Source: Rhodospirillales bacterium
Lineage (GTDB): Bacteria > Pseudomonadota > Alphaproteobacteria > UBA828
Direction: 5' to 3'
Assembly: GCA_028818565.1 (NCBI GenBank)
Contig: JAPPNV010000443.1
Coordinates: 1 to 35,827 of the forward strand
DNA length: 35,827 nt
Shown here: in pieces, positions 2,013-24,240 of the stretch
How positions within the stretch are numbered: position 1 is the stretch's first letter
How the letters are laid out: each line of letters opens with the position of its first letter
Position numbers and translations under genes: made by a program
Notes under the pieces: model-generated
Told to the model about the DNA's origin: nothing
The model's database searches: none
Seen by the model: the letters and a program-made list of their open reading frames with translations, nothing else

Positions 2013-3185
2013 CTAGTCCTCGATACCGTAGAGGCGCAGGAAGTGCCGCATGCGTGCGACGGCGCCTTGGGGGTCGCGCAACAGGCCCGCATTGTCCGCC
2101 AGGCGAAACAGTTCGGTGAAGTAGGGCAAGGGACGCATCGCCTGCGCGCCACCAATCATCACGAAATGGTCCTGGAAGCCGTTGAGGTAGGCCAGGAACA
2201 CGACGCCCGTCTTGTAGCGTTGGGTGGGCGCCCGGAAGATCAAGCGCGATAGTGGAACGGTCGGCTCCAGCAGGAGGCGGTAAGCCGATCGATCGCCCTT
2301 CGCCAGCGCCGAGAGGGCCGCCGAGGCTGCGGGAGCGACGGGATCGAAGATGCCGAGCAGCGCGTCGCTGTAACCCCGGTCGTCGCCTTCGATCAGGGCC
2401 GGGTAGTTGAAGTCGTCGCCCGTGTACATCCTGACGCCGTCCGGCAGGCGCCGACGCATCTCTATTTCCTTGCGGTCGTCCAGGAGGGAGAGCTTGATCC
2501 CATCGATCCTGGCGGCGTTGGCATGGATCACGGCCAGCGCGGTCTCGAGTGCGGGCGGGAAGTCGCCCGCGCCCCAGTAGCCGGCGAGCGCCGGGTCGAA
2601 CATCTCGCCCAGCCAATGCAGGATCACCGGCTGGTCGGCCTCGGCCAGCACGCGGGCGTAAACGGCTTCGTAGTCGGCGGGGCCTGTCGCGATGCGGGCC
2701 AGCGCGCGGCTCGCCATGAGGACGACCCGCCCGCCCGCCTTCTGCACGGCGGCGAGTTGCTCCAGATAGGCGGCGACAACGTCGTCGAGCGAGCGCGCCT
2801 CAGCGGGGTCGAGGTGGTCGGTGCCGACGCCGCAGACGATGCGCTTCTGCTCCGCCGGGGCCGCAGCGGCGAGCGAGCGCTCGATCAGCTCCCTGGCGGC
2901 GGGCCAGTCGAGACCCATGCCGCGCTGGGCCGTGTCCATCGCCTCCGCGATACCGAGGCCGAGGTCCAGGATGTGGCGGCGGAAGGCCAGCGTGGCCTCC
3001 CAGTCGATGGCGGGACTGAGTCCGGGCTCTTGCGCGGCGAAGGGGTCGGCCACCACGTGCACCGCCGCGAAGGCCGTGCGGTTGAAGCGGTGCGGGCCCG
3101 CCGGAGCCTCGATCGGGCGCCCCGCCAGTTGATAAGGGGTCAACCGGCCTGTTTCGTCGGGGAGATGGATCGCGAGAGCCGTCAT
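2013..3185 (-). CDS. DUF993 / dihydrodipicolinate synthase-like aldolase
   Basis: A 390-residue protein of the DUF993 family, which is related to the DHDPS/N-acetylneuraminate lyase TIM-barrel aldolases. The probable Schiff-base lysine is Lys231 in DGIKLSLLDD, the strand where this superfamily carries its catalytic lysine. The N-terminal 60 residues (FNRTAFAAVHVVADPF) are typical of DUF993 and absent from ordinary DHDPS. It is the last gene of the minus-strand catabolic cluster, 15 bases after the GMC stop codon. By family logic it would carry out an aldol or retro-aldol cleavage or a dehydration of a keto-sugar-like acid; the true substrate is unknown. The ATG at 3185 has only a weak ribosome-binding site, consistent with translation coupled to the upstream gene. 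Confidence 0.85.
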   Translation of the reverse strand: MTALAIHLPDETGRLTPYQLAGRPIEAPAGPHRFNRTAFAAVHVVADPFAAQEPGLSPAIDWEATLAFRRHILDLGLGIAEAMDTAQRGMGLDWPAARELIERSLAAAAPAEQKRIVCGVGTDHLDPAEARSLDDVVAAYLEQLAAVQKAGGRVVLMASRALARIATGPADYEAVYARVLAEADQPVILHWLGEMFDPALAGYWGAGDFPPALETALAVIHANAARIDGIKLSLLDDRKEIEMRRRLPDGVRMYTGDDFNYPALIEGDDRGYSDALLGIFDPVAPAASAALSALAKGDRSAYRLLLEPTVPLSRLIFRAPTQRYKTGVVFLAYLNGFQDHFVMIGGAQAMRPLPYFTELFRLADNAGLLRDPQGAVARMRHFLRLYGIED

Positions 3186-3200
3186 CGGGTCACGTAACCG

Positions 3201-4787
3201 TCAGATCAGCCCGCGGACGTGGTCGGCGCCCTTCTCCGCCACCATGATCGTCGCCGCGTTGGTGTTGCTGCTGGGCAGCGCCGGCATGACCGATGAGTCG
3301 ATGACCCGCAGGCCCTCCAGGCCGCGCACCCTCAGCGCCGGGTCAACCACCGCCAGCTCGTCGCTGCCCATCTTGCAGGTGCCGACGGGATGGTAGTCGG
3401 TCTTGCCCACCTTGCGAGCGTAATCGGCGATGTCGGCATCGCTCTGCACGTCGGGGCCCGGATAACGCTCGCACAGGATGAAGGGCCGGAATGCTTCCTG
3501 CGCCATGATCTCGCGCGCGAGCCTGAAGCCGCGCAGCGACATCTCGCGGTCATAAGCGTTGCCCCAGTAGTTGGGGTCGATCACGGGCGCGGTGCGCGGG
3601 TCAGCATCCCGCAGGGTCACCGTGCCGCGCGAGCGTGGCCGGGAGAAGCACGAGTTGAGGGTGACGCCGGCATTTCTCAGCTTGGCAAGACCGTGTTCCA
3701 GCCCCGCGCCGAGCACAAAGTGCATCTGGATGTCGGGCGCTCTGGCGTCAGGGTCGGCGTACCAGAACCCGCCGGCGTCGATCAGGGTCGATGCAATCGG
3801 GCCTTGGCGGAACAGGAGGTACTGCACGACGGCCCAGAGGGCGCGGTGGGGCCGGGCGAGCTTGTCGTAGCTGAAGTCGCCGCGGCATTCGCTCACGACG
3901 TAGACATCGAAGTGATCCTGCAGATTCTGCCCGACGCCGGGTAGGTCGTGGATCACGTCGATGCCGAGCGCCTTCAGGTCGTCACCGCGGCCGATGCCCG
4001 ACAGCATCAGCAGCTTGGGGGAGCCGATCGCGCCGGCGGCAACGATCACCTCATGTGCGGACCGCACCGTGGCGGCCTTCCCGCGGCGCCGGTAGTCCAC
4101 GCCGATGGCGCGCCCGTTCTCGACGACCACACGGGTCGCCATTGCGCGGGTCTGCACCGTCAGGTTGGAACGCCCCGTCGTCGGCCGCAGATAGGCGACG
4201 GCGCCGCTGCAGCGCCGGGCGTTGCGGTTGGTCACCTGGTAGTAGCCGCAGCCCTCCTGCACCGCGCCATTGAAGTCGGGGTTGAAGGGCAGGCCCGCCT
4301 GCTGCGCCGCACGCAGGAATGCGCCCGATATCGGCAAGGGGCGGACGGGGTCGCTGACGCCGAGGGGACCGCCGGACCCGTGATAGTCGTTGTGGAAGCG
4401 CTCGTTGTCCTCGGGCCGCTTGAAGTAGGGCAGCACATCGGCGAAGGTCCAGCCGGCGCAGCCCGCCTCGGCCCAGGCGTCGTAGTCCTTGGCGTTGCCG
4501 CGCGCGTAGATCATGGCGTTGATGGAACTGCCGCCGCCCAGCACCCGGCCTTGCGGGTACCACATCGCGCGCCCATCGATCTCGCGTTGGGGCGCCGTGG
4601 AATAGCCCCAGGTGTGCGACGTGCCCGTCAGCTTGGCGAAACCGGCCGGCACGTGAATGTAAGGGTGCCGGTCGCTGCCGCCGGCCTCCAGCAACAGCAC
4701 GGAGACGTCTGGGTCTTCGGAAAGCCGCGCCGCGAGACAACAGCCCGCCGGCCCGGCGCCCACGATGACGTAGTCGTATTCGCGCAC
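3201..4787 (-). CDS. GMC-family FAD oxidoreductase, choline dehydrogenase-like
   Basis: A flavoprotein of 528 residues that oxidises an alcohol to an aldehyde or ketone. It starts with the FAD-binding motif VIVGAGPAG and then LLLEAGG, carries the GMC signature around GGGSSINAMIYARGN, and ends with the catalytic His region YHPVGTCKMG and the Asn in SSNTNAATIM. The ORF track runs back to 5285 through the SDR gene, but homology begins at the GTG at 4787 (VREYDYVIVG), two bases after the SDR stop, and this gives the normal family length. It is one of two complete GMC enzymes in this cluster. No signal peptide is visible, so it is probably cytosolic or loosely membrane-associated. Its natural electron acceptor and substrate are unknown. 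Confidence 0.9.
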   Translation of the reverse strand: MREYDYVIVGAGPAGCCLAARLSEDPDVSVLLLEAGGSDRHPYIHVPAGFAKLTGTSHTWGYSTAPQREIDGRAMWYPQGRVLGGGSSINAMIYARGNAKDYDAWAEAGCAGWTFADVLPYFKRPEDNERFHNDYHGSGGPLGVSDPVRPLPISGAFLRAAQQAGLPFNPDFNGAVQEGCGYYQVTNRNARRCSGAVAYLRPTTGRSNLTVQTRAMATRVVVENGRAIGVDYRRRGKAATVRSAHEVIVAAGAIGSPKLLMLSGIGRGDDLKALGIDVIHDLPGVGQNLQDHFDVYVVSECRGDFSYDKLARPHRALWAVVQYLLFRQGPIASTLIDAGGFWYADPDARAPDIQMHFVLGAGLEHGLAKLRNAGVTLNSCFSRPRSRGTVTLRDADPRTAPVIDPNYWGNAYDREMSLRGFRLAREIMAQEAFRPFILCERYPGPDVQSDADIADYARKVGKTDYHPVGTCKMGSDELAVVDPALRVRGLEGLRVIDSSVMPALPSSNTNAATIMVAEKGADHVRGLI

Positions 4788-17178: not shown

Positions 17179-18096
17179 TCACCCCGCGAAGCGGGGCTCC
17201 GGGATACCCCTGATGCCGAGGCCGGTGACCGCGAACAGGCCGCCGGCGAGGAACTGCGGCTTGGCTTCCACCTGGAACATGTCGTGCACCGCAGGATGCT
17301 GCACGCGCGCCATGGAGGTGACGTAGAGCACGTCGAGGTCGTCGCCGCCGAACATCACGCTGGTGACGTTCTTCACCGGCATCCCGATGCGGCGCTCCAC
17401 CGAGCCGTCCGGCGCGTAGCGCACCAGCTCGCCGCCGATCACCTGCGCGTTCCAGAGGCAGCCTTCCTCGTCCACCGTCGAGCCGTCGGCGACGCCGGCA
17501 TCGTCCCTGGTCGAGGCGAACACCCGCTTGTTGGAGAGCGTGCCGGTCTCGATGTCGTAGTCGTAGGCCCAGAACTCCTCCTGGAAGCTGTCGGCGAGGT
17601 AGAAGGTCTTGTCGTCCGGGCTCCAGCACGGGCCGTTGGTGCAGATGATGCCGCCGTCCACCTTGGTGACGCTGAGGTCGGGGTCGAGCCGCCACAGGCC
17701 GCAGATGGTGAGCTCCTCCTTGTCGTCCATGCCGCCTGCGAAGAAGCGCCCGCGCCGGTCGCACTTGCCGTCGTTGAGCCGGGTGCGCGGCTGCTCGGCG
17801 TCGACCTTGGTGATCAGCTCCATCTCCGCCTTGTCGTAGTCGAAGAAGTAGAAGCCGTCGTCCAGCGCCATCACCGCGCCGCCGCCCTGGCGCAGCGCCA
17901 TCGCGCCGACATCGTGCTCGCCGAGGGTCCAGTTCTCGACCTTGCCGGTGCGCGGGTCCATGCGCCAAAGCTCGGGCTTGCCGACCCGGCGGCCGGTGCC
18001 GTCCACCCAGTAGAGCCGGCCTTCGTCCACGTCCCACACCGGGCCTTCGCCCAGGTGGTTCCCGCAGTCGAGGATGCACTCGATCTTGATGCTCAT
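17179..18096 (-). CDS. SMP-30/gluconolactonase-family protein
   Basis: A predicted six-bladed beta-propeller of 305 residues, of the SMP-30/gluconolactonase/LRE family, which uses a bound divalent metal to hydrolyse sugar lactones. The metal ligands typical of the family can be picked out: Glu in LGEGPVWD, Asn in RLNDGKCDRRGRFF, Asn in TNGPCWSPD and Asp in VADGSTVDEEG. I start at the ATG at 18096 (MSIKIECILDCG), which has AGAGG at correct spacing; the track's extra 27 residues upstream are arginine-rich shadow. No signal peptide, so probably cytosolic. It is divergent from the RraA-family gene across a 110-base gap, which suggests shared control. A sugar-acid lactone is a reasonable substrate class. 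Confidence 0.92.
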   Translation of the reverse strand: MSIKIECILDCGNHLGEGPVWDVDEGRLYWVDGTGRRVGKPELWRMDPRTGKVENWTLGEHDVGAMALRQGGGAVMALDDGFYFFDYDKAEMELITKVDAEQPRTRLNDGKCDRRGRFFAGGMDDKEELTICGLWRLDPDLSVTKVDGGIICTNGPCWSPDDKTFYLADSFQEEFWAYDYDIETGTLSNKRVFASTRDDAGVADGSTVDEEGCLWNAQVIGGELVRYAPDGSVERRIGMPVKNVTSVMFGGDDLDVLYVTSMARVQHPAVHDMFQVEAKPQFLAGGLFAVTGLGIRGIPEPRFAG

Positions 18097-18206
18097 GCGC
18101 GTCACCTCTTGGTTTGCCCGATGGTGGCGGCGGGCGGCGCGGCGCGCAAGGCCGCGCACGTTGTCACCGCGCCGCACGGCCGCTAAGAGGGGGTGGGGAG
18201 GATCGC

Positions 18207-18893
18207 ATGACCGGTCACGACATCGATCTCGCGGCGCTCGGCCGCTACGACACGCCCACCATCTGCAACGCGCTCTTAGGTATCGCGCCGGAGGCGGCGG
18301 GGCGCTCGACCAAGGCGACGCTCCATTGCGCGCGCCCCGATCTGCCGCCCATGGTGGGCTTCGCGCGCACCACGCTCTACCGCACGCTGGAGCCCGGCGG
18401 CCTCGACGCCGAGGCCGAGAAGGCGCAGGACCTCGCCTGGTTCGACTATGTCGCAGCCGGGCCTGAGCCCCGCGTCGTCGTGGTGCAGGACGGCGACACG
18501 CCCCACGCCGCCACCAACGCGCTCTTCGGCGAGGTGATGAGCTTCATGCACAGCGCGCTCGGCTGCATCGGCCTCGTCACCAACGGCGCCGTGCGCGACG
18601 TGGCCGGCATGGCCGAGGGCTTCCAGGTTCTGCACGGCGGCATCCGGCCCAACCGCGCCGACTATCACCGGGTCGATTTCGACTGCGAGGTCAACGTCGC
18701 CGGGCTCTATGCCCGCACCGACACGCTCATCCATGCCGACGTCAACGGCGCCGTCGTCGTCCCGCCCGCGCTTGTGCCGCAGATTCTGGAGGCGGCCGCC
18801 GCGATCACCGAGAAGGAGCAGGCGATCATCGACTTTTGCCGCGACCCCGATGTCACGGCGGACAGCTTCAAGCGCTTCTGGCGCGAGGGCTGA
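18207..18893 (+). CDS. RraA-family protein (HMG/CHA aldolase-like)
   Basis: A protein of 228 residues in the RraA/demethylmenaquinone methyltransferase-like fold, whose enzymatic members are class II pyruvate aldolases (4-hydroxy-4-methyl-2-oxoglutarate aldolase) or oxaloacetate decarboxylases. The active-site strand reads IGLVTNGAVRD (residues 121-131), with the conserved Arg and Asp but Asn where many members have Asp (DGAVRD). Upstream residues VVVVQDGDTPHAAT correspond to the usual GD..A segment. The ATG at 18207 has GGGGAGG upstream. It forms a two-gene operon with the amidotransferase (6-base gap). An aldolase or decarboxylase acting on a 2-oxo acid is more likely here than the RNase E inhibitor role, given the catabolic neighbours. 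Confidence 0.88.
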   Translation: MTGHDIDLAALGRYDTPTICNALLGIAPEAAGRSTKATLHCARPDLPPMVGFARTTLYRTLEPGGLDAEAEKAQDLAWFDYVAAGPEPRVVVVQDGDTPHAATNALFGEVMSFMHSALGCIGLVTNGAVRDVAGMAEGFQVLHGGIRPNRADYHRVDFDCEVNVAGLYARTDTLIHADVNGAVVVPPALVPQILEAAAAITEKEQAIIDFCRDPDVTADSFKRFWREG

Positions 18894-18899
18894 GCGCCG

Positions 18900-19640
18900 G
18901 TGAGAATCCTTCTCCTGCAGAACCACGACAGCTCCGGCCCCGGCTACCTGGAGGAGCCGGCGGCACGGCGCGGCGCCCGCTTCGAGGCCTGCATGCCGCA
19001 CCTCAATGCCGACGACCGGCTGCCCGAGGACGACTCAGGTTACGACGGCTTCCTCCTCATGGGGGGCGCCATGCACGCGGGCCACGTGGAGGAGCATCCC
19101 TGGCTCGAGGATGCGGCGGCGCTGGTGCGGCGCTTCACGGAGGCGGAAAAGCCGGTGCTCGGCGTCTGTCTCGGCTCGCAGATCGTCGCGCGCGCCTTCG
19201 GGGCGCGGTGCTACGACATGGCCGTGCCCGAGGTGGGCTTCGTGCCGATTCGGCTGACCCAGGCGGCGGCCGACGACCCGCTGCTCTGCCAGTCCTTCGA
19301 CAACCCCGTCCACCTCGCCGAGTTCCACAGCCAGACCTTCGACCTGCCCGAGGGCGCGACCCGGCTCATGGTCGGCGACGCGGTGCCCAACCAGGCCTTC
19401 CGGATCGGGAGCGCGACCTATTCGTTCCAGCCCCATTTCGAAGTGACGCCGGAGATGATGACGTATTGGGTCTCGATCTCCGACGAGGTCGTGCCCAAGT
19501 ACGCGCCGACACTCCCCGAGGCGCTGCCGCATCAGCTGCAGCTCCACCACTACGCCGCGCACGATTTCTGCTACCGAGTGGGCGACGCCTGGCTCGACCT
19601 CGTCGCCGCACGGGCGCGGCGAAACGGGGAGGGCGATTGA
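18900..19640 (+). CDS. Class I glutamine amidotransferase domain protein
   Basis: A stand-alone class I glutamine amidotransferase-like protein of 246 residues (GMP synthase GATase-like branch). The nucleophile is Cys90 in VLGVCLGSQ; the partner pair is His179 and Glu181 in QPHFEVTPE. The start is GTG at 18900, six bases after the RraA stop. Free-standing members include gamma-glutamyl hydrolases such as PuuD and poorly characterised proteins of amine catabolism. No synthase partner is encoded nearby, so hydrolysis of a gamma-glutamyl or amide bond is the simpler guess. It converges with the UbiD-like gene, with 66 bases between and no obvious terminator. Confidence 0.9.
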   Translation: MRILLLQNHDSSGPGYLEEPAARRGARFEACMPHLNADDRLPEDDSGYDGFLLMGGAMHAGHVEEHPWLEDAAALVRRFTEAEKPVLGVCLGSQIVARAFGARCYDMAVPEVGFVPIRLTQAAADDPLLCQSFDNPVHLAEFHSQTFDLPEGATRLMVGDAVPNQAFRIGSATYSFQPHFEVTPEMMTYWVSISDEVVPKYAPTLPEALPHQLQLHHYAAHDFCYRVGDAWLDLVAARARRNGEGD

Positions 19641-19706: not shown

Positions 19707-21101
19707 TCAGCTGTCCGTCGACGATTCCGCGCGCCTGCCCTGACGCCGACGGGCAATCCTTTCACGAACCTTCGCCAGCACCGCGTCGGGCGGGCGGGCC
19801 GGCGTCCAGTCGGGGCGATCGGCGGCGGAGGTGGTGGCGTCGATCCCGAGCTTGCCGACGACGCCGTCCTTCTCAAGCGGCTCGGCCCGGTCCGCCTGAA
19901 CGCCCGGAACGACGATCAGGTCGCGTTCGGGCCTCATGCGGGTCGCCACCGCATGCTCCACGGCAACCGGGTCCCACGGGTCGACGTCGCCTTCAACCAC
20001 CGTGACCTGCTTCACGAGGCTGACCGCGGCCCAGACGGCGAACATCGCCCTGCGCGCCGCTCCCTCGCGGGCACCGTCGAGGCTCACGACGGCATGCAGC
20101 CGTCCCGCGCCGCCCGCCGTCACCGCCACCTCGCGCACCGATGGCAGAGCCCGCTGTAGCGATCGCTTGAGCCCCGCCGCAATCGCCTCCGCACCGAGCA
20201 GAATGTGTTCGCCCGCATAGCCCGGAAGCACGCACTGGAAAACGGCGTCCTCGCGCCGGGTCATGTGGGAGAAGGTCACGACATAACCGTCGCCGTAACG
20301 CTCGTACATGCCATGAAACTCGCTGACCGGACCTTCCTCCACGGTCTCGCCGGGATCGAGCACGCCTTCCAGAACGATCTCGCAGTGCGCCGGCACGGCG
20401 AGATCAACGCTCTTTCCCGTCACCACCTCGAGCGGCTCGCCGCAAAGCGCGCCGGCGACCTCGCGCTCATCGTCCCCGAGGCCCAGGTAGAAGCAGGCCG
20501 CCAGCATGACCGCCGGATGATTGCCCAGCGTCACGGCGATCTCCAGCCGCTCGCCGCGCCCCTGCGCAGCGCGCGCCAGAACGGCGAGATGATGGTTCGG
20601 TGCAATGCCGATGAACGCGCGGTTCCCGCCAAGGGGCTTCAGCCGTGCGATCGAGAGATTGCCGCGGCCCGTGACGGTGTCCTTCGCAACGATCGCACCT
20701 GCCGTGATGTAGGGCCCGGTCTCGTGCTCGAAGAACGTGGGGACCGGCAGGGCAGCCAGGTCCGGGTCCGGCACGACAACCTCCTGGCACGGTGCATCGC
20801 CGGCAACGACCCGTGGTGCGAGCGGGCTCTGCACGGAATCGACGAGCCGAGCCTGCAACCGATCGGTTTCGACGCTCAGCGCCCGCGCCGCCTGCGCCCG
20901 TGTCGTCAGGTGATTGCCGGTCACGGCCATGGCGTGCCCGGCGACGTTTTCGAACACCACCGGGCCCCGCCCATCGAGAAGCGACAGCCAGGCGGCGATC
21001 TCGTGGACCGGATCGACCCTCTCCGCGATCCGGGTCAACCCGCCGGCCTCCTCGGCCATGGCAAGATATGCGCGCATGGATTGCGGGTGGTGCGTCGTCA
21101 T
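19707..21101 (-). CDS. UbiD-family decarboxylase
   Basis: A UbiD-type (de)carboxylase of 464 residues. The family uses prenylated FMN to decarboxylate alpha,beta-unsaturated or aromatic acids. The cofactor and active-site residues appear intact: Asn148 and Arg153 in GNLSIARL, the IGIAPNHH segment, and Glu256 and Glu261 in EEGPVSEFHGMY. The ORF track runs back to 21599 inside the lyase gene; the true start is the ATG at 21101, which overlaps the lyase stop codon as ATGA and begins a family-like N-terminus (MRAYLAMAEEAGGL). No UbiX flavin prenyltransferase is in the window, so the cofactor must be supplied from elsewhere. Tight coupling to a lyase-fold protein suggests consecutive steps on one substrate. 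Confidence 0.92.
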   Translation of the reverse strand: MTTHHPQSMRAYLAMAEEAGGLTRIAERVDPVHEIAAWLSLLDGRGPVVFENVAGHAMAVTGNHLTTRAQAARALSVETDRLQARLVDSVQSPLAPRVVAGDAPCQEVVVPDPDLAALPVPTFFEHETGPYITAGAIVAKDTVTGRGNLSIARLKPLGGNRAFIGIAPNHHLAVLARAAQGRGERLEIAVTLGNHPAVMLAACFYLGLGDDEREVAGALCGEPLEVVTGKSVDLAVPAHCEIVLEGVLDPGETVEEGPVSEFHGMYERYGDGYVVTFSHMTRREDAVFQCVLPGYAGEHILLGAEAIAAGLKRSLQRALPSVREVAVTAGGAGRLHAVVSLDGAREGAARRAMFAVWAAVSLVKQVTVVEGDVDPWDPVAVEHAVATRMRPERDLIVVPGVQADRAEPLEKDGVVGKLGIDATTSAADRPDWTPARPPDAVLAKVRERIARRRQGRRAESSTDS

Positions 21102-22582
21102 GCGGCGGCACTCCGTCCGACGCGGTCGTCGGCGAAGATGCGCGCCGTCAGATCGCCCGCGAGGCGCTGCATCTCGGGGCCCAGAACCCGGTCGCTCTCC
21201 ACCGGCGGCACGCGGCTGCGCACCAGGGACACGAGCTCGCCGAGCCGGTTCGGCACCCGTTCGCGGTTCAGGATGTGGAGCGCCTGCGAGGCTGCGACGG
21301 CCAGAACGGCAAGCGCCGAATCGAGCGATTGACCTGCCGCCATGCACTTGGGCCAGGCGAGAAACGCGGGCGCGCCCACATCGTCCTGCCCGAAGACGCT
21401 CGCGTCCGCGGCCGGAATGAAGGTCCGCGTCGCGGCCGTACGCGCCTCTTCTAGGAAGCCCGCGATCGCCATCGGCAGGTAGCCGACGGCGCCGTGACCG
21501 TCGGTCTCGCCTGCCCCGCGTCCCGCCAGCAGGAAGTCGGGATGACCGGACACGCGCCCGTTCATCAGTCCGACGCAGAGACGCAGGCATACCAGGCACA
21601 GGTCCGCCCAGGCGCCGGCAATGCCGTCGATGGCCGGCGCGGCCACCGAATTGTGAAAACCGCCGGTGCTCAGGCAGCGTCCGTGCGCGTGGGTCTCGTC
21701 GGGCGCGAGATAGACCGGATTGTGGGTCACGGCCGAGAGGCTCTGCGCCGCGCGCTCCCGTGCGAAACCGATTGCTGCATGGGCCTGCGCCAGCACGTGG
21801 GGCACGATCCGGTAGCTCACCGGCGCCTGATGGGGTCGCGGTTCGCCGCAGTCGGTTACGTCGTCGAGCAAGGCAACCAATCGCCCGAAGGCCCGCCGGT
21901 TGTGCTCGCCGCCCAGCAGCTCGCCCAGAGCCGTGCCATAGTGCTCGGATGGGGTGTTGAACGCCACGATCGCCAGCGCCAGCACCTCCTCGGCCACCGC
22001 GATCCGCCGCTCGGCGGTCAGCACCGCATCGGCCAGGACTGCGGCTGCGGCGGGGGATCCATTGATCAGCGCGCCGCGCTCTCCGGCCTGCAACTCGAAC
22101 CGCCCGGACAACTCGGCGAACAGCGTGTAGAGGACCAGGATTTCGCCCGGCCCGCCCTGACCCTGTCTCGGCACGCAGGGAATGGGGCCGCGGTTCAACA
22201 TCTCCACAAGCTCTTCGACCAGCCGTGGCGTCGCCATCCCATGACCGCCCAGCAGGTTGGCGAGCCGCGCAAGGACCATCGCGCGCGTGACGCGATGCGG
22301 GTAGGGCTCGCCGAACGCCACGGCCGCCGCCTGCGGCTTGAGGCGGGCGAGGCGCTGCCGATCCTCCTCGTCGAGTGTTCGCCCGATCATCTCGCCATGA
22401 CCCCGGTTCACGCCATACACCGACGCGTTCGGGTCTTCGTCGAGGTAGCGCAAGAAGGCGGCACGAGACGCCGCAATCGTGCTCAGAGCCGCGGCATCAA
22501 CGGCCACCGGCTCACCCTTCCAGGCAACGGCCAGCACCGCCTCGGGCGTGATGTCGAACCGCGAGGCCAGGACCACCGTCAT
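21098..22582 (-). CDS. HAL/PAL-like lyase lacking the MIO motif
   Basis: A protein of 494 residues in the aromatic amino acid ammonia-lyase superfamily. The overall pattern fits: VYGVNRGHGE (cf. YGxNTGFG), ALINGSPAAAA (cf. ALxNGTQ), SYRIVPHVLAQ (cf. YSLRxxPQV), HNPVYLAP (cf. DNPLVF) and STGGFHNS (cf. SGGNFH). The segment that should hold Ala-Ser-Gly for the self-made MIO electrophile (GSVGASGDLAP in HutH) instead reads GQGGPGEILVL at about residues 141-151. No Ala-Ser-Gly triad occurs there. NTGFG has become NRGHG and the late QED motif is QDD. It therefore should not work by the normal mechanism. The start at ATG 22582 overlaps the stop of a 56-codon ORF (ATGA), and its stop overlaps the UbiD start. 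Confidence 0.82.
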   Translation of the reverse strand: MTVVLASRFDITPEAVLAVAWKGEPVAVDAAALSTIAASRAAFLRYLDEDPNASVYGVNRGHGEMIGRTLDEEDRQRLARLKPQAAAVAFGEPYPHRVTRAMVLARLANLLGGHGMATPRLVEELVEMLNRGPIPCVPRQGQGGPGEILVLYTLFAELSGRFELQAGERGALINGSPAAAAVLADAVLTAERRIAVAEEVLALAIVAFNTPSEHYGTALGELLGGEHNRRAFGRLVALLDDVTDCGEPRPHQAPVSYRIVPHVLAQAHAAIGFARERAAQSLSAVTHNPVYLAPDETHAHGRCLSTGGFHNSVAAPAIDGIAGAWADLCLVCLRLCVGLMNGRVSGHPDFLLAGRGAGETDGHGAVGYLPMAIAGFLEEARTAATRTFIPAADASVFGQDDVGAPAFLAWPKCMAAGQSLDSALAVLAVAASQALHILNRERVPNRLGELVSLVRSRVPPVESDRVLGPEMQRLAGDLTARIFADDRVGRSAAA

Positions 22583-22749
22583 GGCGCGCGCCGCGCGCTC
22601 CGCGCGGATGTGTCTCGGGACGGCCCGGCGTCCGGCGCACCCGGCACCCGCCACGCCGCAACATATCCCCGAAGCGCGGACGGGGATGGGCTGAAGTCCG
22701 GGATCGGGCGAGAGCCACCGGCGACTTCGAAGGCATCGCCGTCGTGCAT
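22579..22749 (-). CDS. Small hypothetical ORF coupled to the lyase gene
   Basis: A 56-residue ORF (MHDGDAFEVAGGSRPIPDFSP...) that I do not recognise. Two things make it more than noise: the ATG at 22749 has a strong GAGGTGA ribosome-binding site five bases upstream, and its TGA overlaps the ATG of the lyase gene (ATGA), the same junction used between the lyase and UbiD genes. It has no membrane segment and is rich in Ser, Pro, Ala and Arg, the C-terminal third being arginine-rich. It could be a real small protein, a translated leader that couples expression, or the decayed N-terminus of a former gene. Confidence 0.4.
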   Translation of the reverse strand: MHDGDAFEVAGGSRPIPDFSPSPSALRGYVAAWRVPGAPDAGPSRDTSARSARRAP

Positions 22750-23187: not shown

Positions 23188-24132
23188 TCATGCGTCCTCC
23201 CCGAAATTTGCGTGGGCTAGCGTCGCGGCCCCGAGGTCCGCGAGCGCGGACCCGGAGGACTTGAAGAACGTGATTTCCTGTTCACTGCCGCGGCCGGCCG
23301 CGGTTCCCCGGCAGAGGCCCGAAAGGTCGCCGGCGATCGCTTCCTCCGTCAGCGCGCCGGACCGGATCGGCCCGATGATGTCGCCGCTCTCCTTCAAGGC
23401 TCCCTCCGTATCGATGTAGACGCGCGCCCGGCGCACCGCCGCGTCGTCGGCTTCGCGCATGTGGGGCCTGAAGCTGCCGATCAGGTCGAGATGCTGTCCA
23501 GGCCTGAGCCACGCGCCCGCGATCAGCGGATCGATTGCCAGCGTCGCGCAGCTGACGATGTCGGCGTCCGCGACCGCAGCTTCGAGATCCGTCGCGGCTG
23601 CGGCGCGAAATCCTGCGCCATTCAGCCTTCGCGCCAGCCTTTCGGCATTCTCCACATTGATGTTCCAGACCGTGACGTCCTCGATCGGACGCACGGCCCG
23701 AAACGCATCGGCCAGGTTGCCGGCGACCCGCCCTGCGCCGACCACCAGCAGCCGCCGCGCGTCCGCAGGCGCCAGGTAGCTCGCCGCCAATGCGGCGGTG
23801 GCGGCGGTGCGCCGGTCGGTGAGTTCGCCGCCGTCCAACGCCGCCAGGTGCCGCCCGGTCTTCGCATCGAAGAGAAGATAGGACGAGGACACCGAGGGCA
23901 TTCCGGCGGCCGCGTTGCCCGGATTGACGTTCACGATCTTGACCCCGCCGAGCCCCGCCGGGTTCCACGCGGGCATCAGGAGCAGCGCCGCGTCCGGCTG
24001 CCCGTCGAGCGCGATGGCGTGGTGATGCCGCAACGGCGCGGCGGCGCCAACCCGGAACATCTCCCGCAACGCCTCGATCAGCGCGCCGAACGGCAGCAGG
24101 TGTCGGGTCTCTTCGGCACTGAAGACGCGCAT
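23188..24132 (-). CDS. Ornithine cyclodeaminase/mu-crystallin family protein
   Basis: An NAD(P)-dependent protein of 314 residues. Relatives are ornithine cyclodeaminase, alanine dehydrogenase (AlaDH), ketimine reductases and SbnB-type enzymes. It has the substrate-side Lys65 in GGVKIVNVN, the conserved ELTDRRTAATAALA segment (Arg at 107-108), the Rossmann motif VVGAGRVAGN (about 130-139), and DLIGSF near residue 215. I choose the ATG at 24132 (MRVFSAEE), which has GAGGAA upstream, over the one at 24153, which has none. It precedes the lyase and UbiD genes on the same strand but is separated by 438 bases, so membership of that operon is uncertain. Reductive amination or deamination of a 2-oxo/amino acid is the likely chemistry. 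Confidence 0.88.
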   Translation of the reverse strand: MRVFSAEETRHLLPFGALIEALREMFRVGAAAPLRHHHAIALDGQPDAALLLMPAWNPAGLGGVKIVNVNPGNAAAGMPSVSSSYLLFDAKTGRHLAALDGGELTDRRTAATAALAASYLAPADARRLLVVGAGRVAGNLADAFRAVRPIEDVTVWNINVENAERLARRLNGAGFRAAAATDLEAAVADADIVSCATLAIDPLIAGAWLRPGQHLDLIGSFRPHMREADDAAVRRARVYIDTEGALKESGDIIGPIRSGALTEEAIAGDLSGLCRGTAAGRGSEQEITFFKSSGSALADLGAATLAHANFGEDA

Positions 24133-24240
24133 GGTTCGGTTCCTCGATTGCATTGCGAGGGAGGCCCCTCGGGCCGGAGTCTTCCACGTTACGACGGGCG
24201 TCGCCTGTCTCGACCTCGTCGCCGCCCGCCGCTCCCGAAG

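Follow-up and report, generated by a model that had tools for sequence, protein, structure and literature searches.

The stretch of DNA analyzed here, referred to as the window, covers 35,827 nucleotides of the genome of a Rhodospirillales bacterium. On its minus strand lies a reading frame that is open without internal stops (22654..21098), for which the ATG at position 22582 is the likely start, giving a protein of 494 aa (21098..22582) that we refer to as the lyase. The TGA of this gene overlaps with the ATG of the next one as ATGA (21098..21101), in agreement with an earlier note on this DNA that described the two genes as co-translated. This second gene, also on the minus strand, encodes a UbiD-family decarboxylase of 464 aa (19707..21101), which scored 290.4 bits against TIGR00148 (cut-off 244.85). 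Further downstream are genes for SMP-30/gluconolactonase, RraA-like, and glutamine-amidotransferase proteins (17179-19640), and approximately 600 bases upstream of the lyase is a gene for a reductase of the ornithine cyclodeaminase/mu-crystallin family (23188-24153). Homologs of these outer genes were not detected in the other loci of the clade described below that we searched.

A match of 189.7 bits to the Pfam model Lyase_aromatic (PF00221; cut-off 27.3) places the 494-aa protein in the fold of histidine ammonia-lyase (HAL), while its score against the NCBIfam HutH equivalog model (hutH, TIGR01225) was 154.9 bits, far under the cut-off of 539. Its AlphaFold model (pLDDT 88, pTM 0.91) was aligned by Foldseek to both P. 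putida HAL and ergothionase with TM scores of 0.85-0.87 (0.87/0.87 for ergothionase 6s7j), and bacterial HAL-fold structures gave scores of 0.81-0.87; as the active sites of this fold are assembled from three subunits, the monomer model is of little use for judging the pocket. The motifs YGVNRGHG, ALINGS, QAPVSYRIVPHV, HNPVY, STGGFH, and GQDD, as well as the loop GQGGPGEILVL, were all found as previously quoted. A second copy, 42% identical, is located on another contig of the same genome, in which we found no match to a HAL bearing the Ala-Ser-Gly (ASG) triad, to urocanase, or to HutI.

MIO is the textbook account of amine removal by the HAL fold, and the ASG triad of MIO-dependent enzymes is missing from the window protein. 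Where HutH has GSVGASGDLA, residues 141-149 of the protein (22136..22162, minus strand) read GQGGPGEIL. In the alignment of GQGGPG-EILVL with GSVGASGDLAPL, the loop segment is 19 residues long in the window protein and 20 in ASG-bearing enzymes; this holds across the alignment, where 28 of 29 clade rows have 19 residues, as do all 12 rows of the ergothionase group, and all 17 ASG rows have 20. The GPG-type loop had been taken to stand in place of the triad, and the sequence is as quoted, but the alignment indicates that the ASG is not substituted: the Ser is deleted, which leaves the loop one residue shorter, and the Asp that follows is replaced by Glu147. As the methylidene of MIO would derive from this Ser, its deletion means that MIO cannot form, and no intact ASG occurs elsewhere in the loop of the window protein. 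An AASG lies a few residues before the loop in one relative (L175), but it is not conserved. The PF00221 match and the loop alignment thus bear out the view that this is a HAL-fold protein unable to make MIO.

Much of the active site is nevertheless retained. The equivalents of Tyr53, Asn195, Gln277, and Arg283 (P. putida HAL numbering), which together with the fold are shared with HutH (EC 4.3.1.3), are invariant in all 38 aligned members of the clade, as is the Glu directly after the loop (Glu147). The segment QAPVSYR (residues 252-258; 21809..21829, minus strand) contains the Gln277 and Arg283 equivalents, with Val255 at the position of Tyr280, and Q252, V255, and R258 are likewise present in 38/38. 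Tyr occupies the Tyr280 position in all 17 MIO-bearing rows and in none of the 41 rows from the two main MIO-less groups, and 29 of 29 clade rows have Val. Also unlike HutH, the clade lacks the equivalents of His83 and Glu414, with A/I and N/D in their places, and the segment after the loop is approximately 23 residues shorter. Retention of the Arg, Tyr, Asn, and Gln points to an enzyme that is active and binds a carboxylate of the amino-acid type, and the absence of the His83 and Glu414 equivalents suggests that its substrate recognition differs from that of HAL and ergothionase. Judging from these residues, it is quite probable that the window protein is catalytically active. The joint changes at Tyr280 (Val), His83 (Ala/Ile), and Glu414 (Asn/Asp), along with the shortened segment and the diverse neighborhoods of one part of the clade (sub-branch B), could also be read as signs of an enzyme in the same pathways that is not a carbon-nitrogen lyase, such as an isomerase, a hydratase, or another eliminase. 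We consider this unlikely, as neither the Arg that binds the carboxylate nor the catalytic Tyr varies, and the neighbors at several loci (HutU) consume a HAL-type product.

A HAL-fold lyase that is stated to lack MIO is ergothionase (PMC13405746), the ergothioneine trimethylamine-lyase (PDB 6s7j/6s7q), and its crystal sequence has the same shortened loop. The claim that all HAL/PAL/TAL enzymes need MIO therefore overlooks this enzyme, and the statement on ergothionase was the only one on MIO-less lyases that we found in the literature. We obtained the ergothionase loop by way of a homolog encoded beside genes for thiourocanate hydratase and thiohydantoin desulfurase. The loop of the T. denticola enzyme (6s7j) reads SSIGEG-DITTLSH and those of homologs read GSIGCA-DIGLMGQ; both align without gaps with GQGGAG-EILSLSH of the window's clade. 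The two groups thus share the fold, the lack of MIO, a loop one residue shorter that is followed by an acidic residue, an aliphatic residue in place of Tyr280, and the Arg283 equivalent, and the related pathway genes ErtD and ErtE are found at some loci of the window's clade. However, identity in the structural alignment is only about 17%, and ergothionase keeps the His83 and Glu414 equivalents and a segment of approximately 40 residues after the loop, which the window's clade does not. Within the ergothionase group, the Glu414 equivalent is always kept, and that of His83 is kept in the ergothionases.

To place the protein among its relatives, we built an unrooted tree of the HAL fold without the loop columns. 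The window falls in a clade of 30 rows with a GxGE loop, which received a support of 100/100, and the GPG- and GAG-type sequences therefore form a conserved clade. A second MIO-less clade with a GxxD loop (12 rows, 95/87) consists of the ergothionases, which form a clade of their own (98/97), and several uncharacterized HAL-fold proteins. The window's clade is thus an MIO-less lineage separate from ergothionase. We also considered whether its members are ergothionase itself, and rejected this because of the tree, the active-site positions, and a search of 35 genomes or records in which no thiourocanate hydratase reached the NF058530 cut-off. Several other HAL-fold lineages have MIO-less loops as well. 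For example, a small third pair (L156, 6372-7988, and L187; loops GSVGY--LTH and GSVGY--IVH) groups with the MIO-bearing enzymes, and the gene in L156 is directly before a HutU gene, with genes for a ProV-type transporter and a HutC-like protein upstream. The uncharacterized proteins that group with the ergothionases (L014, L180, L181, L182, L183, L185, and L186) have loops one residue shorter: GAS-DL, GSS-DL, GEA-DL, GQC-DL, and GES-DL. Two loci have a pair of divergent MIO-less HAL-fold genes, in tandem in L179 (6519-9643) and convergent around a gene for a family-5 solute-binding protein in L077 (298-5134), and these pairs possibly encode a two-subunit enzyme. Elsewhere, an ASG-bearing HAL-fold gene lies close to a gene for thiourocanate hydratase over the curated cut-off (L155, in genome G106), which suggests that MIO-type enzymes may also serve thiourocanate-type pathways.

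The clade is not confined to a few genomes. Of 385 genomes from the same class, 10 matched a degenerate loop pattern, and a scan of an 84,980-species collection with two peptide patterns gave 54 loci, which is a lower bound and includes one ASG-type enzyme (L085) and one locus with only a fragment (L088). At least 50 relatives, mainly alphaproteobacterial, have the same loop. Most of the names among the loci are Rhodospirillales, Rhodobacteraceae/Paracoccaceae, Hyphomicrobiales, and unclassified Alphaproteobacteria, with single MAGs labeled Gammaproteobacteria, Chloroflexota, and Acidimicrobiales, and two Rhizobium plasmids bear the gene, one of them plasmid c of R. tropici CIAT 899 (gene at 1814806-1816239). 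Comparison of the window gene with near relatives gave dN/dS values of 0.14-0.24, and the gene is under purifying selection. The loss of the MIO triad might have marked a degenerate copy of HutH, but the conservation across the clade, the intact frames, and these dN/dS values contradict this, and we give it next to no credence. The gene is neither a one-off degenerate copy nor, as had already been noted, a case of simple decay.

Ten loci, including the window, are of the type that we refer to as sub-branch A (the others are L035-L039, L078, L138, L139, and L175), and in the tree the window groups with L036-L039, L139 of R. jaguaris, and L175 of genome G265 (99/98). A UbiD gene adjoins the lyase at all ten; within the flanks searched, no UbiD was found at the remaining loci, which make up sub-branch B. 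The expectation that the clade would have the same neighbors throughout thus holds for UbiD in sub-branch A, but not for sub-branch B, where neighbors vary by lineage. UbiX and ErtE are also present at three sub-branch A loci (L039, L139, and L175), and ErtD at two (L039 and L139), with scores over the NCBIfam curated cut-offs (564-577 against 520 for ErtE and 760-778 against 600 for ErtD). In G265, the genome of L175, an ErtD over the cut-off is found on another contig, and R. tropici has kept UbiX, UbiD, and the lyase, with ErtE only as a remnant. The cluster in L175 that contains ErtE, UbiX, UbiD, and the lyase also encodes a HAL-fold protein of 627 aa (2459-4339, minus strand) with the loop GTLGEG-DL and an N-terminal extension that is a possible signal sequence.

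Phenylalanine- or tyrosine-type lyases (PAL/TAL) can be paired with ferulate decarboxylase (Fdc/UbiD), in which case the UbiD-family decarboxylase would act on the unsaturated acid. The window resembles this pairing in that a gene for a HAL-fold enzyme adjoins one for a UbiD-family decarboxylase, but here the enzyme is MIO-less. The ATGA coupling and the adjacency at 10/10 loci would also fit a protein that has no catalytic role and serves as a partner or scaffold of UbiD. However, UbiD is on the strand opposite to the lyase in L039, L138, L139, and L175, so strict co-translation is not conserved, and the loop and the conserved active-site residues are shared by sub-branch B, where UbiD is not nearby. 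As UbiD is not a neighbor in most of the clade and the active-site Arg, Tyr, and Asn are invariant, we consider a non-catalytic partner improbable. Of the three options that the earlier note had put forward, which were a non-lyase member of the fold, an enzyme with another mechanism, and a non-catalytic partner of UbiD, we favor the second.

In sub-branch B we sought a neighbor conserved across all loci and did not find one, and Flp-pilus genes, NAD-glutamate dehydrogenase, and a histidine-biosynthesis-family gene near some copies were judged to be incidental. There are nonetheless four loci (L056, L069, L072, and L082) where the lyase is directly after HutC-HutU, a position next to HutU that resembles that of HutH, and two of these also have HutI and HutG. 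In L082, all four Hut proteins are over their curated cut-offs (HutI 468 against 298, HutG 308 against 279, HutC 274 against 220, and HutU 945 against 375). We found no ASG-bearing HutH in the genomes of these four loci, where the PF00221 matches are all MIO-less; one of the genomes (G384 = G428) is 98% complete and has no HutI match, and the remaining ones are MAGs, some with low completeness (67% for G002 = G420) and some without a completeness figure. Similarly, the genomes of L054, L066, and L084 have HutI and HutU, with HAL-fold matches that are only MIO-less. In these related Hut operons HutH has probably been replaced, with similar chemistry achieved by a different mechanism. These arrangements would also be expected if the clade were an ammonia-lyase that needs no MIO and uses a free amino acid as its substrate, namely histidine in sub-branch B, where it would replace HutH in Hut operons, and some other amino acid in sub-branch A. 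Without MIO, however, ammonia leaves poorly, and the His83 and Glu414 equivalents that contact the imidazole are lost. Many other genomes also have a normal HutH with HutU alongside the MIO-less copy, so there is no simple mutual replacement. We therefore regard an ammonia-lyase as a minority possibility, although for some members of sub-branch B it would be the more surprising result.

Our best explanation, to which we give an even chance, is that the clade consists of catalytically active, MIO-independent carbon-nitrogen lyases that most likely free trimethylamine from an aromatic amino-acid betaine. Like ergothionase, a HAL-fold lyase of this kind would rely on acid/base catalysis to remove the amine from an aromatic amino-acid derivative, giving an alpha,beta-unsaturated acid. 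Because ammonia would leave readily only with the help of an electrophile, which is lacking here, the likeliest substrates would be betaines (N-trimethylated amino acids such as hercynine and ergothioneine), from which trimethylamine would leave; the choice of substrate and leaving group is tentative, at slightly under even chances. In sub-branch A, the unsaturated acid may be handed to the co-translated UbiD decarboxylase, and in some relatives in sub-branch B the product would probably be urocanate, which would pass to HutU. In mild support of a betaine, transporters of the OpuAC/ProV family (quaternary-amine type) are found beside the lyase in L050, L063, L073, and L139. Rhizobial HutXWV, which is OpuA-like, imports histidine, so transporters of this type do not prove a betaine. 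The family also includes the ergothioneine importer EgtU (PMC9732360). Weighing against a betaine lyase, the clade falls outside the ergothionase clade and lacks the His83 and Glu414 equivalents, the window's genome gave no match to urocanase or HutI, and N-carbamoylglutamate, which is what ErtD produces, is not easily reconciled with UbiD decarboxylating the acrylate. A search for literature linking hercynine, trimethylamine, a lyase, and urocanate returned nothing.

The branch that bears on whether the MIO-less state is ancestral or derived has a support of 80/62 in the unrooted tree. It is conceivable, though we think it rather doubtful, that the clade includes MIO-independent histidine ammonia-lyases that replace HutH in otherwise normal Hut operons and also that the MIO-less lineages preserve the state before the one-residue insertion that gave rise to the triad. 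A large second MIO-less lineage, found in Hut operons and next to UbiD genes, would show that the fold has an alternative mechanism whose use extends beyond ergothionase. As proteins of the clade match histidine ammonia-lyase models below the cut-offs, they are likely to be mis-annotated, and they may instead release trimethylamine from betaines. The clade, which includes a member in Rhizobium tropici CIAT 899, would provide a tractable set for asking what MIO is for and how it arose.
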